DNA from: Akkermansia sp.
GTDB taxonomy: Bacteria; Verrucomicrobiota; Verrucomicrobiia; Verrucomicrobiales; Akkermansiaceae
DNA: 64,000 nucleotides
Direction of reading: 5' to 3'
Assembly (NCBI GenBank): GCA_017517805.1
Contig: JAFWYD010000084.1
Location: 1-64,000 of the forward strand
Shown piece after piece: positions 1,360 to 45,106 of this stretch (the first letter of the stretch is position 1; each line of letters starts with the position of its first letter). The position numbers and the translations under genes were made by a program. The notes under the pieces were generated by a model. The model had not been told where the DNA came from and ran no database searches. It saw only the letters and a program-made list of their open reading frames with translations.

Positions 1360-1770
1360 GGGTATCCGGCTGAATTGTCGGGTTCGGATTCGGTCCTTCC
1401 CCGCAGGAGGGCGGGTACTATGACCTCTGCTGACTCCCGTTGCACCTTCCTTGCGCATCGCTGCGCTCGTAGCCGTCTTTTGCGGCAGAACAACGGGTCT
1501 CTCAGGATAAGGCACGCAGCTTTCACACAGTGCAAGCCGAATTTACCATGCGCACTCTTGACAGAGTATCGGGCGTAAGCATCCGTTGCTACCTCACCTC
1601 GTGCGCTTTGGCCTTGTATTCGGTTCTTGTTCATCCTGTCTGTGTTTCTCCTCCGACTTCCTTCCCACCCCACATTACTGTGACGCAGTTGCCTTTGGCT
1701 ATTTGATTCCGCCCTGTCAGCGGCTCATTGGGGACTTTCACCCCAGTTGCGTGTCATGCCTGACGTACAA
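1360..1770 (-). mobile_element. 5' ribozyme part of a decayed group II intron
   Basis: Reading the minus strand, this leader of the reverse transcriptase has features usual in group II intron 5' halves: a GGGGTGAAAGTCCCC stem near 1727-1741, a GGAAGTCGGAGGAG block and GGAGTCAGCAGAGGTCATAG just before the reading frame. The 5' boundary is put near 1765-1770, directly behind the efflux-operon terminator. That position resembles the insertion habit of class C introns, but the class was not established. With no recognisable domain V on the other side, the element is probably a 3'-truncated remnant. Confidence 0.6.
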
Positions 1771-13695: not shown

Positions 13696-14442
13696 TCACG
13701 CCAGCAAAGCCGCCATATCTGCCGGCAACGGGCTCTCCACCGTAATTTCCTCCCCCGCCCAGGGGAACGTGAGACGGCAGGCATGCAGCGCATGGCGAGG
13801 CAGAATCAGCCGCCGCTCCAGCGCCGGGGTCCAGCCACCTGCAATGAAATCCAGATAGCAGGTTTCATCGCCACCGTAAATCTTATCGCCCACCAGAGGG
13901 CAGCCCAGATGAGCCGCGTGCACGCGAATCTGATGCATGCGGCCGGTGTGGGGGCTGCAACGCAGCAGCGATACAGTCGGTCTGCGCTCCAGCACCTCAA
14001 ACTCAGTGCAGCACTCCTTTCCCTGAGGGTGGCAGCACTGCCGCACATGCACGCGGGTTTCAGCCACCTGCTCCATGCGCAGAATCGGCTCGGCACAGCA
14101 TGCCGCATTCCACAGCGGAGCCCCCTGCACCACCGCATAATACTCTTTCCGGAGCATGCGGGCCTGCATCGCCTTGCCCAGTTCGCGGGCAGCCTCTGCA
14201 TTCTTGGCCACAAGCGTGATGCCGCTAGTCTCACGGTCAAGGCGGTTGATAAGTGACACCTGCCCCCCGGTAGCCAGCTCATAGGAAAGCAACTCATGCA
14301 GGCCATGCCAGAGTGTGGGCTCATTCTTCTCCCCGGTGGGGTGGGTAAGCAGAGGGGCCGCCTTATCCACCACCAGCACCCCGGCATCCTCATACAGGAC
14401 GCGGAATTCCGGCACCACGGCAATAGGCATGTCGTAACTCAT
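13696..14442 (-). CDS. RluA-family RNA pseudouridine synthase
   Basis: This 248-residue enzyme converts uridine to pseudouridine in rRNA or tRNA. The catalytic Asp is in INRLDRETSG (about residue 69), and the C-terminal HTGRMHQIRVHAAHLGCPLVGDKIYG block is typical of RluA-type enzymes. No S4 RNA-binding domain is present, so it is a minimal member of the RluC/RluD/TruC kind; the target base cannot be told from sequence. The ATG overlaps the stop of the upstream RsuA-type gene (ATGA), so two different pseudouridine synthases are made from one mRNA. Confidence 0.9.
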   Translation of the reverse strand: MSYDMPIAVVPEFRVLYEDAGVLVVDKAAPLLTHPTGEKNEPTLWHGLHELLSYELATGGQVSLINRLDRETSGITLVAKNAEAARELGKAMQARMLRKEYYAVVQGAPLWNAACCAEPILRMEQVAETRVHVRQCCHPQGKECCTEFEVLERRPTVSLLRCSPHTGRMHQIRVHAAHLGCPLVGDKIYGGDETCYLDFIAGGWTPALERRLILPRHALHACRLTFPWAGEEITVESPLPADMAALLA

Positions 14443-15131
14443 GCGAATATGGCAGGGTCAATCTCCACCCATTCTCCCGGTGCCAGGTCCAGCTCTGCCA
14501 GCGACAACGGGCCGATGGCCACCCGCTCGAGTGTCTCGACCGGAGCCCCCACCGCTGCAAGCATGCGGCGCACCTGGTGATAGCGTCCCTCGTGCAGCGT
14601 CAGTTGGCCGGAGCAATCAGAATGCAGGACCAGCTCCGCTGGCAGACACGGTGTACGCTCGCCCTCCAGCATGAATTCTCCACTGGCAAATTGAGCCACG
14701 GCTGCCGGAGGCACCGGAGCATATGTGGTAAAGGCATACACCTTCGGCACGTGCCGTTTCGGGCTGGTCTGGGCGTGTTCAAACGCACCATCATCCGTCA
14801 GTAGCAGAAGCCCGCTGGTTTCCTTATCCAGCCGCCCGACCGTATTGACCGCAGGATTCCGCCGCAACCATTGCGCCGGCAACAAGTCATAAACCAGATC
14901 TCCGGCTTCCTTATGGCTGCAGGTGCACCCAAGCGGTTTATTCAGTGCTACATACAAACCATGCGGAAACTCTACAGGCTCACCATCCACCAGCACCTCA
15001 TGAGGCTCCACCTTCTCATTTGGTGACTTGACCGGCACCCCCTGCCGGGTCACCCGCCCTCGCTTCAACCATTGCGCCACCTCACGCCTGCTGCAATACC
15101 CAAAGCGGCTTAAAAGTGCGTCTGTTCTCAT
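14439..15131 (-). CDS. rsuA-like: RsuA-family 16S rRNA-type pseudouridine synthase
   Basis: A 230-residue enzyme starting at MRTDALLSRFGYCSRREV, an S4 domain, followed by the RsuA catalytic block (ALNKPLGCTCS, VGRLDKETSGLLLLTDDG with catalytic Asp). EGRYHQVRRMLAAVG completes the family signature. RsuA itself modifies U516 of 16S rRNA; RluB, RluE and RluF modify 23S rRNA. The length without a long tail fits RsuA or RluE better than RluB, but the target is inferred. A longer frame (to 15206) begins upstream of the likely promoter and is not favoured. Confidence 0.88.
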   Translation of the reverse strand: MRTDALLSRFGYCSRREVAQWLKRGRVTRQGVPVKSPNEKVEPHEVLVDGEPVEFPHGLYVALNKPLGCTCSHKEAGDLVYDLLPAQWLRRNPAVNTVGRLDKETSGLLLLTDDGAFEHAQTSPKRHVPKVYAFTTYAPVPPAAVAQFASGEFMLEGERTPCLPAELVLHSDCSGQLTLHEGRYHQVRRMLAAVGAPVETLERVAIGPLSLAELDLAPGEWVEIDPAIFA

Positions 15132-38318: not shown

Positions 38319-39716
38319 ATGTCTGAAGATAATGGCTATCCCGCCGCCCCAGAGGGCAGCGTTCGCCTGAATAAATTCCTGGCCATGTGTGGTTATGAAA
38401 GCCGCCGCGCTGCGGACCGGCTGATAGCAGAAGGCCGCGTCGAGGTGAACGGCAAGGCTGTGGACACACCGGGTCTGAGGGTCATGCCTACGGATTTCGT
38501 GAGAGTCGATGGCCGCCGCGCCGTGCCCCAGGAAGAAGTCGTCATCCTGCTCAACAAGCCGCGCGGCTATGTATGCAGCCGCGAAGCTCAGGGAGCCATC
38601 GGCACCGTCTATGATCTGCTGCCGCCCAAATACCGCCACGCCAACTACGTGGGGCGGCTGGATGCAGATAGCGAAGGCCTGCTCATCTTTACCAACAACG
38701 GAAGCATGAGCCAGAACCTGGCCCACCCCAGCGGTGGTGTGGAGAAAGAATACTGGGTCACCCTGGACCAGGCATTCGACAGTAGCGTACTCATCCAGCT
38801 GCTCAAGGGGGTCCGTATCCCCGAAGGCCAGGCCAAGGCCAAGTACGTTTCCCGCCTCTCAGCTCGCCGCGCCTGCGTAGTCCTGGAGCAAGGGCTGAAG
38901 CGCCAGGTGCGCCAGATGTTTGCCTGTCTCGGTCTCCGGGTAAAGAAGCTTGTCCGCGTGCGTATCGGTTCCCTGTGGGGTGGTGACCTGGAACCCGGGC
39001 ACTGCCAGCTCATGAGCGCAGAGCAGATTGAACAGGCTGGCACTAACCCGCGCCGCCGCAAAGGCCTGGTGGGAGCCAAGCAGGTGTTCAAGCCGCGCCA
39101 GAACCCGGTTCAGACCAAAGCGGCAGATGATGACGATGATGATAACTACGTCTTCAACCCCGCTGATTTCGAAACCGAGGAGGAAGCTCTGGGGGTAGCC
39201 ACCAAGTTTACCGAGGGTGAGGCCTACGAACCTGAGCGAGAAGACAGCCGCCGTCCCTTCGGGCGCGCCCCCCGCAACCGCCGCGATGATTCCCGCAGCT
39301 TTGGCGGTGAACGCCGTTCCTCCGGTGAGCGCAGGAACTTCGGCGAACGCCGCAGCTTCGATGGCGAGCGCCGCTCCTTCGGCGAGCGCAGGAACTTCGG
39401 CGAACGCCGCAGCTTCGATGGCGAGCGCCGCTCCTTCGGTGAGCGCAGAAACTTCGGCGAACGCCGCAGTTTCGATGGCGAGCGCCGCTCCTTCGGTGAG
39501 CGCAGAAACTTCGGCGAGCGCCGCAGTTTCGATGGCGAGCGCCGCTCCTTCGGTGAGCGCAGAAACTTCGGCGAGCGCCGCAGCTTCGATGGTGAGCGCC
39601 GCTCCTTCGGCGAGCGCAGGAACTCCGGCGAGCGCAAGCCCTCCTTTGGTGGCCGCAAACCCTTCAACCGCGACAACGGGAACCGCCGCTCCGGAGGTTT
39701 TCGACGCGGCGAATAA
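38319..39716 (+). CDS. rluB-like: RsuA/RluB-family pseudouridine synthase with an Arg-rich repeat tail
   Basis: Of 465 residues, about 1-245 are a standard S4 plus RsuA-type pseudouridine synthase (VRLNKFLAMCGYESRRAADRLI; LLNKPRGYVCS; YVGRLDADSEGLLIFTNNG with catalytic Asp; KRQVRQMFACLGLRVKKL). RluB, which modifies 23S rRNA U2605, often has a basic tail. Here an acidic piece (DDDDDDNYVF) is followed by residues 310-465, rich in Arg, Gly, Ser and Phe, including five copies of the 19-residue unit GERRNFGERRSFDGERRSF. This RGG-like tail probably binds RNA and may make the protein prone to condensation. This is the third pseudouridine synthase of the window. A terminator follows at 39750. Confidence 0.9.
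   Translation: MSEDNGYPAAPEGSVRLNKFLAMCGYESRRAADRLIAEGRVEVNGKAVDTPGLRVMPTDFVRVDGRRAVPQEEVVILLNKPRGYVCSREAQGAIGTVYDLLPPKYRHANYVGRLDADSEGLLIFTNNGSMSQNLAHPSGGVEKEYWVTLDQAFDSSVLIQLLKGVRIPEGQAKAKYVSRLSARRACVVLEQGLKRQVRQMFACLGLRVKKLVRVRIGSLWGGDLEPGHCQLMSAEQIEQAGTNPRRRKGLVGAKQVFKPRQNPVQTKAADDDDDDNYVFNPADFETEEEALGVATKFTEGEAYEPEREDSRRPFGRAPRNRRDDSRSFGGERRSSGERRNFGERRSFDGERRSFGERRNFGERRSFDGERRSFGERRNFGERRSFDGERRSFGERRNFGERRSFDGERRSFGERRNFGERRSFDGERRSFGERRNSGERKPSFGGRKPFNRDNGNRRSGGFRRGE
39324..39608 (+). repeat. Five 57-bp tandem repeats in the pseudouridine synthase tail
   Basis: Five in-frame units starting at 39324, 39381, 39438, 39495 and 39552, with a degenerate sixth at 39609. They differ mainly by silent C/T and A/G changes, so the protein repeat is conserved. 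Unit length equals that of the unrelated His-rich repeat at 6107-6448. Confidence 0.95.
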
Positions 39717-43560: not shown

Positions 43561-45012
43561 TTACAGGCTTTCACCAAAATCCTCGCGGAACTTGGCGGCC
43601 AGCTTCTCCTGCCAGTCGCTCAGCGGCTGCAGACGACCGAAGAAGAAGCGGAGCACCTCGGGTTCCTCCACCCACTTCAGGCCACCGATGAGTTCGCGGT
43701 TATCGTACAACCACTTCACACGGTCGGCGCAGTACTTCACCTGGGAGAGCGTGAACACGCGGCGCGGGCAGGCCAGACGCACCAGCTCCAGCTCGGCGTA
43801 GTTCTCAGAGCCATCAGGGTTGCGCTGCTCGGAAAGAGAACCACGCTCCATACCGCGGATACCGCCGGCGATGTACAGGGCCGTGGCCAGGGCTCCGGCG
43901 GGGTACTGCTCGTGCGGGATATTGGGCAGGAATTCGGAAGCATTGATGTGGGCACCCAGGCCACCTGCGGGCTTCACCATAGGCACACCGTAGTCAGAAA
44001 GTTCCTTCACGAGGTATTCGATGAAGATGGGACCCTGGTTGATGATTTCCTCATCGAGCGTCTCCATGAGGCCCACAGCCATAGCTTCCATGGCGCGCAC
44101 TTCCATACCACCGTAGGTCAGGAAGCCCTCGTACAGCGGGATGAAGGCCTTCATCTTGAGGATGAGGCTCTCGTTGTTGGAGATGATGGCACCACCGCGG
44201 GCGAAACCGAGCTTGCGGCTGGAGAAGTAGATGAGGTCCATCTCATCCGCAATCTTGCGGATGATTTCAGCCACCGTCATATTCTTGGCGGCTTCCTCGC
44301 GGGTCTTGATGAAGTACAGGTTATCCTGCAGCAGAGAGGCATCCAGCACGGACATGATGCCGTATTCCTTACACACAGCGGCCACATCCAGCATATTCTG
44401 CATGGAAAGCGGCTGACCACCAATCAGGTTCGTGCCGGCTTCGATACGCACAAAGGGGACATGCTCAGCACCCACCTCTTCGATAAGGGCGCGCAGGCGG
44501 GCAATATCGAAGTTGCCCTTGAAGGGGTACTCCAGGTTCGGGTCGAGGCCTTCGGCAATGATGAGCTCCTCCACCCGGCCTCCCTTGCGGGTGATATGGG
44601 CCTTGGTGGTCGTGAAGTGGAAGTTCATGGGAACCACATCGCCTTCCTTCACGAAGGTTTCGGCCAGGATGTTCTCGCAGGCACGACCCTGGTGGGCAGG
44701 CAGGAAATACTTCGTACCGAACACATGCTCAATGACGCGGGAAAGGCGGTTGAATGTCTCGGAACCTGCGTAGGAGTCATCTGCCTGCATGGAAGCGGCA
44801 ATCTGGTTATCGCTCATGGCGTTCACACCAGAGTCGGTGAGCATATCCATGAACACATCCTTATTCTGCAGCAGGAACGTATTGTTACCAGCCTCGCGCA
44901 GCTTCTGCACACGCTCTTCCACCGTGGGCAGGAACAATTTCTGAACAACGCGCACCTTGTGCATTTCCAACGGCACCTGGTGCTCTTCCTTGTAAAATTT
45001 GACAATAGACAT
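43561..45012 (-). CDS. Tryptophanase/tyrosine phenol-lyase family enzyme, phenol-lyase-like active site
   Basis: The 483-residue PLP beta-eliminating lyase would break tyrosine or tryptophan into phenol or indole plus pyruvate and ammonia. It shares long blocks with the family: AGNNTFLLQNKDVFMDMLTDSG, YAGSETFNRL, LPAHQGRACEN, NLIGGQPLSM and ERGSLSEQRN. The PLP Lys should be K267 in SSRKLG. Two residues that separate the subfamilies look like tyrosine phenol-lyase: T134 in FHFTTTKAH (Asp in tryptophanase) and F456 in LRFF (His463 in E. coli TnaA). Yet the DATR motif of both reads DASL (L227) and the segment after the PLP Lys is unlike either. Substrate is therefore open. Automatic annotation would say tryptophanase. 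The promoter leaves a 60-base leader; no TnaC-like peptide is seen. Confidence 0.82.
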   Translation of the reverse strand: MSIVKFYKEEHQVPLEMHKVRVVQKLFLPTVEERVQKLREAGNNTFLLQNKDVFMDMLTDSGVNAMSDNQIAASMQADDSYAGSETFNRLSRVIEHVFGTKYFLPAHQGRACENILAETFVKEGDVVPMNFHFTTTKAHITRKGGRVEELIIAEGLDPNLEYPFKGNFDIARLRALIEEVGAEHVPFVRIEAGTNLIGGQPLSMQNMLDVAAVCKEYGIMSVLDASLLQDNLYFIKTREEAAKNMTVAEIIRKIADEMDLIYFSSRKLGFARGGAIISNNESLILKMKAFIPLYEGFLTYGGMEVRAMEAMAVGLMETLDEEIINQGPIFIEYLVKELSDYGVPMVKPAGGLGAHINASEFLPNIPHEQYPAGALATALYIAGGIRGMERGSLSEQRNPDGSENYAELELVRLACPRRVFTLSQVKYCADRVKWLYDNRELIGGLKWVEEPEVLRFFFGRLQPLSDWQEKLAAKFREDFGESL

Positions 45013-45076: not shown

Positions 45077-45106
45077 ATTCTATCATGTCCTCTTGATGAT
45101 TGTCAA
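45077..45106 (-). promoter_or_regulatory. Promoter of the tyrosine phenol-lyase-like gene
   Basis: TTGACA - 18 bp - TAGAAT on the minus strand, a strong match with a leader of about 58 bases. Confidence 0.65.

Follow-up and report, generated by a model that had tools for sequence, protein, structure and literature searches.

Does the 'tryptophanase' gene of a gut Akkermansia encode an enzyme that releases indole from tryptophan? Indole, phenol and their host conjugates are watched as host-active gut metabolites, and indole output is often assigned from that label. The gene studied here lies in a 64,000-nucleotide stretch of Akkermansia DNA, hereafter the window, where a 483-residue open reading frame fills exactly 43561–45012 on the minus strand; the initial annotation, which proposed a mis-annotated tryptophanase with phenol-lyase determinants and an altered PLP pocket, had given no strand. 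The features needed below are as follows, with tyrosine phenol-lyase (TPL, EC 4.1.99.2) numbered as in Pantoea, TnaA or TIL denoting tryptophan indole-lyase (EC 4.1.99.1), and the third clade being the lineage described below.

43561–45012, minus strand: third-clade TnaA/TPL-like PLP lyase, 483 aa, 54.3 kDa, stand-alone gene, ATG at 45012.
44611–44613, minus strand: T134 codon, aligned to TPL T124; Asp in TnaA.
44332–44334, minus strand: L227 codon, aligned to TPL R217; Arg in 27/27 TPL/TnaA rows, Leu in every third-clade row.
44212–44214, minus strand: K267 codon, the PLP Schiff-base lysine by alignment to TPL K257.
44197–44199, minus strand: R272 codon, an Arg in place of N262–I263 directly ahead of GG; the post-lysine loop here is one residue short of its TPL/TnaA counterpart.
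43843–43845, minus strand: R390 codon, aligned to TPL R381, a published phenol-lyase determinant.
43645–43647, minus strand: F456 codon, aligned to TPL F448; His in TnaA.
43564–43623, minus strand: clade-specific C-terminal extension, residues 464–483, predicted helix at 467–479; motif in 37/39 third-clade rows and 0/27 others, TPL and TnaA being without it.
45077–45106, minus strand: promoter-like TTGACA-N18-TAGAAT, 11/12 by consensus match only, 64 bp upstream of the ATG.

The gene stands between hemC, which converges on it, and a divergent ZnuA-like gene, and an operon logic was rejected, as these neighbours have no pathway in common. Around the lyase gene an Rfam search gave neither a riboswitch nor any other family, and a tRNA search found only a tRNA-Cys. 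The product is the only one of four Beta_elim_lyase matches above the Pfam cut-off in the source assembly, which is 90% complete.

The protein belongs to Pfam PF01212 and scores 583.4 bits against NF009709, the PRK13238 tryptophanase subfamily model (curated cut-off 285), which, like the database name, favours the reading as a genuine tryptophan indole-lyase whose pocket happens to be unusual. Both TnaA equivalog models are, however, missed by far (TIGR02617, 330 against 825.8 bits; NF053783, 408.3 against 750). The TPL equivalog TIGR02618 is also far out of reach (435.6 bits, cut-off 720.7), a point that weighs against the tyrosine-directed reading we come to favour. Among sequences in the PDB, TPL matches best (366 bits) and TnaA next, and none of the 22 distinct sequences matched has a score like that of a clade member. 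An AF2 model built from 30 sequences (pLDDT 86.4, pTM 0.88) superposes best on Citrobacter freundii TPL (Z 49.5, 1.9 Å over 443 residues), followed by the TnaA of E. coli (Z 48.0) and B. theta (Z 47.6). The PLP lysine, D214, R404, Y71 and the predicted fold are those of the fold-type I TPL/TnaA family, but the DxxR arginine (R217) beside PLP is not. The thiocysteine lyase (SH) domains of PKS lines (9cen) share the superfamily fold (Z 33.7) at 21–22% identity, but are embedded in the PKS, whereas the window protein stands alone; PMC3870968 reports them to be without R381.

In a tree of 66 rows (39 third-clade, 12 TPL, 8 TnaA and 7 unlabelled), the 39 rows group together with 100/100 support, outside the TPL clade (99/95) and the TnaA clade (100/99), and the window protein is in neither. 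Rows were labelled TPL or TnaA on their NCBIfam score or, for Pantoea and E. coli, on record annotation and species respectively; a Fusobacterium row without annotation was placed with TPL by us. The third clade is set off by a branch of about 2 changes per column, and the tree program flags long end branches for Amycolatopsis, Halorussus and E. coli. Tree position and missed equivalog cut-offs together make the initial suspicion of a misannotation well supported. Its proposal of a third specificity in the family agrees with the phylogeny; the tyrosine substrate and phenol release that it predicted are putative; and the gene it presented as a single oddity is real but belongs to a broad clade that includes the only tryptophanase-family protein of A. 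muciniphila. A phylum scan gave matches at E < 1e-80 in 39 of 288 genomes, with identities of 59–100% for the third clade or 38–41% for others. In the literature searched we found no printed description of this clade, although one may exist. In a one-genome-per-species collection, at least several hundred loci of this clade, which includes the abundant A. muciniphila protein, carry the 'tryptophanase' label without the tryptophanase determinants, and many annotations may need correction.

Five positions discriminate TIL from TPL according to PMC5805759: D137/T124, F304/M288, V394/M379, I396/R381 and H463/F448. At these, 39/39 third-clade rows have T, F, M, R and F, four TPL-type states and one TIL-type. 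T134 and F456, the two residues on which the phenol-lyase assignment was first based, are present and align to T124 and F448 of the Pantoea reference; M388 (M379) and R390 (R381), which had gone unmentioned, are also kept, while F297 (M288) is the Phe of TIL. The remaining TPL residues Y71, F123, N185, D214, K257 and R404 are all kept in the window protein, which reads, in Pantoea numbering and with departures from TPL in brackets, F36, T49, S51, Y71, R100, F123, T124, N185, D214, (L217), (R256), K257, (R262), (F288), Y291, M379, E380, R381, R404, F448 and F449, identically in 39/39 clade rows. An independent set of 139 loci (137 full length without stops, 118 distinct, 96 outside the first 39) retains the nine tested residue states in 96/96, which brings the total to 135. 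In this set TPL and TnaA are strictly told apart by only four columns: at 124 and 448, the two of them that are published determinants, the third clade is TPL-type, and at 76 and 453 it is neither or variable.

A phenol-type pocket is well supported by sequence, although in this unrooted tree T124, R381 and F448 could be ancestral and need not reflect a retained function. Since the pocket appears to be tyrosine-type and not tryptophan-type, indole production should not be deduced from the 'tryptophanase' label. For the indole-lyase reading, the TIL-like Phe at M288 and the RefSeq name 'tryptophanase' of a Rhodobacter member can be added to the subfamily score, but TIL Asp137, Ile396 and His463 are Thr, Arg and Phe in 135/135 sequences, the protein lies outside the TnaA clade, and clade genes coexist with true TnaA in eight genomes; we consider it very unlikely.

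The change in the PLP pocket is confirmed and extends throughout the clade. L227 aligns to R217, with Leu in 135/135 clade sequences and Arg in 27/27 TPL/TnaA rows, and the post-lysine segment SSRKLGFARGG (residues 264–274, aligned to S254–G265) follows the pattern S-x-R-K-x4-R-G-G in 96/96 additional clade sequences, as opposed to S-x-K-K-x6-G-G in 26/27 TPL/TnaA rows. The clade has fixed a different residue at eleven columns that TPL and TnaA conserve: K11R, E14Q, L47M, G67A, E69D, R217L, K256R, N262R, G296V, H343L and H416Q. At the cofactor site, all 135 sequences share Leu for R217, Arg for K256 and Asp for E69, together with a post-lysine loop that is shorter by one residue and ends in Arg, R272, whose alignment partner is N262 or I263 depending on gap placement. 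Gly52, Glu69 and Asn262 are, as we take it, the K+ ligands in TPL. That L227, R266, R272 and D79 are fixed together suggests that they form a single rewired unit, in which the guanidinium of R272 might substitute for R217, the bound cation or both. The residue that we equate with R217 is named among the contacts to the carboxylate of the intermediate in PMC3870968, and monovalent cations influence TnaA stability and PLP binding (PMC7461572), a point on which titles cited in PMC2770544 agree. The clade is a natural test of the roles of R217 and bound K+ in a much-studied enzyme family.

Compared with the Citrobacter/Pantoea enzymes, the window protein has the TPL fold, catalytic residues and four of five specificity residues, but differs in its identity of about 40%, separate clade, R217, K256 and E69 replacements, shortened post-lysine loop with Arg, M288 to Phe and additional C-terminal helix; with TnaA it shares the fold, PLP lysine, general architecture and the Phe at M288, at 34–40% identity, but not the three TIL residues, the clade or the PLP/cation module. 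Our preferred reading, held with middling confidence on the strength of alignment and modelling, is that this third-clade protein is an active β-eliminating PLP lyase of the TPL/TnaA fold that combines a phenol-type pocket with a rewired PLP/cation site and most likely acts on L-tyrosine or a relative. K267 would form the aldimine with the amino acid, R412 (and N195) would grip its carboxylate, and a phenol-like leaving group, in a pocket that M388, F456 and F457 close off, would be recognised and protonated by Y81 with R390 and T134, the aminoacrylate then giving pyruvate and ammonia. The likeliest substrate would be L-tyrosine or a related ring-hydroxylated amino acid, with phenol or phenols released and not indole. 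R217 beside PLP and the loop that we take to be the K+ site would have been replaced as one module (L227, R266, R272, D79).

Against this tyrosine-directed reading, the reaction or the substrate could have changed with the loss of R217 and the alteration of the cation loop. An enzyme for a non-tyrosine phenolic or heteroaromatic amino acid, its chemistry altered by the lost R217 contact, would suit the 11 clade-fixed columns, several of them at the PLP/cation site, the clade-specific C-terminal extension, the long separating branch (about 2) and a DUF554 partner that is absent beside 22 TnaA and 15 TPL loci; but the first-shell ring-binding residues are nearly all those of TPL, and we give this alternative a low probability. 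The altered R217 and post-lysine loop might also point to a catalytically dead or non-enzymatic paralogue, which is extremely improbable given that the Schiff-base Lys, Asp214, Arg404 and Tyr71 are fixed and that dN/dS is about 0.02–0.04 against two close Akkermansia relatives (dN 0.020, dS 0.92; dN 0.037, dS 0.94). This low ratio, a mark of purifying selection, and the fixation in 39/39 and 96/96 sequences argue that the residue pattern is neither chance nor decay.

TPL and TIL also act on serine- and cysteine-type substrates and on S-substituted cysteines. This activity makes it conceivable, though in our judgement unlikely, that the enzyme is a general β-lyase that takes these substrates from mucin peptides to pyruvate, ammonia and sulfide or thiols. 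The clade gene is the sole family member in 13/13 human-type Akkermansia genomes (chosen for having the gene), and the computed mass of the A. muciniphila clade protein, 54,002.3 Da, is close to the 54,003 reported for an abundant mucin-grown protein, a 'tryptophanase' band that is weaker in optimised medium than on mucin (PMC10782997). The same text, in which the A. muciniphila member is higher on mucin than in glucose/tryptone medium, suggests serine or cysteine as substrates, and an Rrf2-type regulator adjoins the Rhodobacter member; R381, T124, M379 and F448 are, however, fixed in 135/135 sequences, and a small-substrate lyase has no need of phenol-ring residues.

Published accounts of indole formation from L-tryptophan by Akkermansia conflict. 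The supernatant of A. muciniphila is reported to contain more indole, indole-3-acetic acid (IAA) and other indoles, with no significant change in tryptophan (PMC8305782), a report that favours an indole-lyase and, like the TIL-type F297 at one of the five determinants, counts against the tyrosine-directed reading. Conversely, 16 isolates were run through 21 API 20A tests including indole, of which 15 were negative throughout, 2 positive throughout and 4 variable, and indole is absent from the six positive or variable tests, so all 16 would be indole-negative by elimination (PMC11480726), in a medium that its authors call ill-suited to Akkermansia; A. massiliensis and A. glycaniphila are also indole-negative (PMC9758162). 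Our literature search, which covered some sources in part, found no report of phenol production by A. muciniphila. A stronger version, which we put forward tentatively and hold to be possible but doubtful, is that the clade represents a third kind of enzyme within the family, with a substrate of its own, that the post-lysine Arg replaces both R217 and K+ and makes it independent of monovalent cations, and that it is the A. muciniphila 'tryptophanase'; if so, literature claims of tryptophanase-made indole in Akkermansia would be wrong.

Neighbour clustering, which left out 9 of 79 loci whose main open reading frame was missed by the caller, found only DUF554 (PF04474) to be strongly recurrent. 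A DUF554 gene adjoins 33 of 177 clade loci (for example L050, L064 and L091–L105), at least 4 of the 33 being repeat fetches (L139/L050, L141/L057, L144/L100 and L196/L064). It occurs in two fixed arrangements (17 upstream divergent, 15 downstream on the same strand, 1 other), in 32 of 33 cases within 0.25 kb of the lyase gene, and beside 0/22 TnaA and 0/15 TPL loci, where the flanks were shorter (~1.5 kb). The DUF554 membrane protein possibly transports the substrate or product.

The window copy does not group with the human-type Akkermansia copies (61–63% identity), which form a separate branch, but with Phocaeicola (86%) and Muribaculaceae (84%) copies; a single clade of Akkermansia copies was rejected (lnL 227.7 lower, AU p 1.45e-44). 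The window copy was thus acquired by transfer, and its nesting in the tree suggests the direction, from Bacteroidales to Akkermansia. The GC content of 57% is already host-like, as opposed to 40% in Phocaeicola, and the transfer is therefore not recent. Among the matches listed, the named loci closest to the gene come from MAGs of Akkermansia or Akkermansiaceae, mainly from ruminant hindgut (94–99% identity), and the genome holding the window is Akkermansia-like. The gene is patchy, with a match in 21 of 59 genomes compared (source genome included), all within the genus. Comparing the empty site in relatives without the gene was of little use, as the ZnuA-like gene and the lyase gene are not neighbours in most relatives.

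Members of the clade occur widely in Bacteroidales and Verrucomicrobiota. A one-genome-per-species scan with patterns derived from the third clade gave at least 541 relatives, though some of these may be TPL or TnaA; the 80 kept come from Akkermansia, Bacteroidales, Kiritimatiellae, one Gallicola and one Proteobacteria MAG. Among 201 Bacteroidaceae genomes, 55 match and 26 exceed the TnaA cut-off, and 8 have a true TnaA plus a lower-scoring match (343–405 bits) assigned to the third clade by score range, not by tree. The Rhodobacter member (64% identity) is carried on a plasmid of Rhodobacter sp. CZR27, with its divergent Rrf2-family regulator gene at 14293–14730 of the fetched locus (L131).

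Further relatives and window features were seen in passing. On plasmid NZ_CP024895.1 of Amycolatopsis sp. AA4 (L148), a 33%-identical 'tryptophanase' adjoins tsrT, a tryptophan 2-C-methyltransferase gene, and its substrate is perhaps 2-methyltryptophan. Two Bacteroidia genomes encode two TnaA/TPL-like modules in one 887-aa open frame (G797:C1:3896348-3898981 and G812:C154:9157-11787), and 845–850-aa frames in G600, G636 and G668 may be similar double modules. In the window itself, elements of group II intron domains D1–D4 (Rfam) lie close to the start (1393–1684, minus strand), and a 465-aa open reading frame at 38319–39716 has a start that by eye resembles a pseudouridine synthase and a tail of tandem RRSFGERRNFGERRSFDGE-type repeats.
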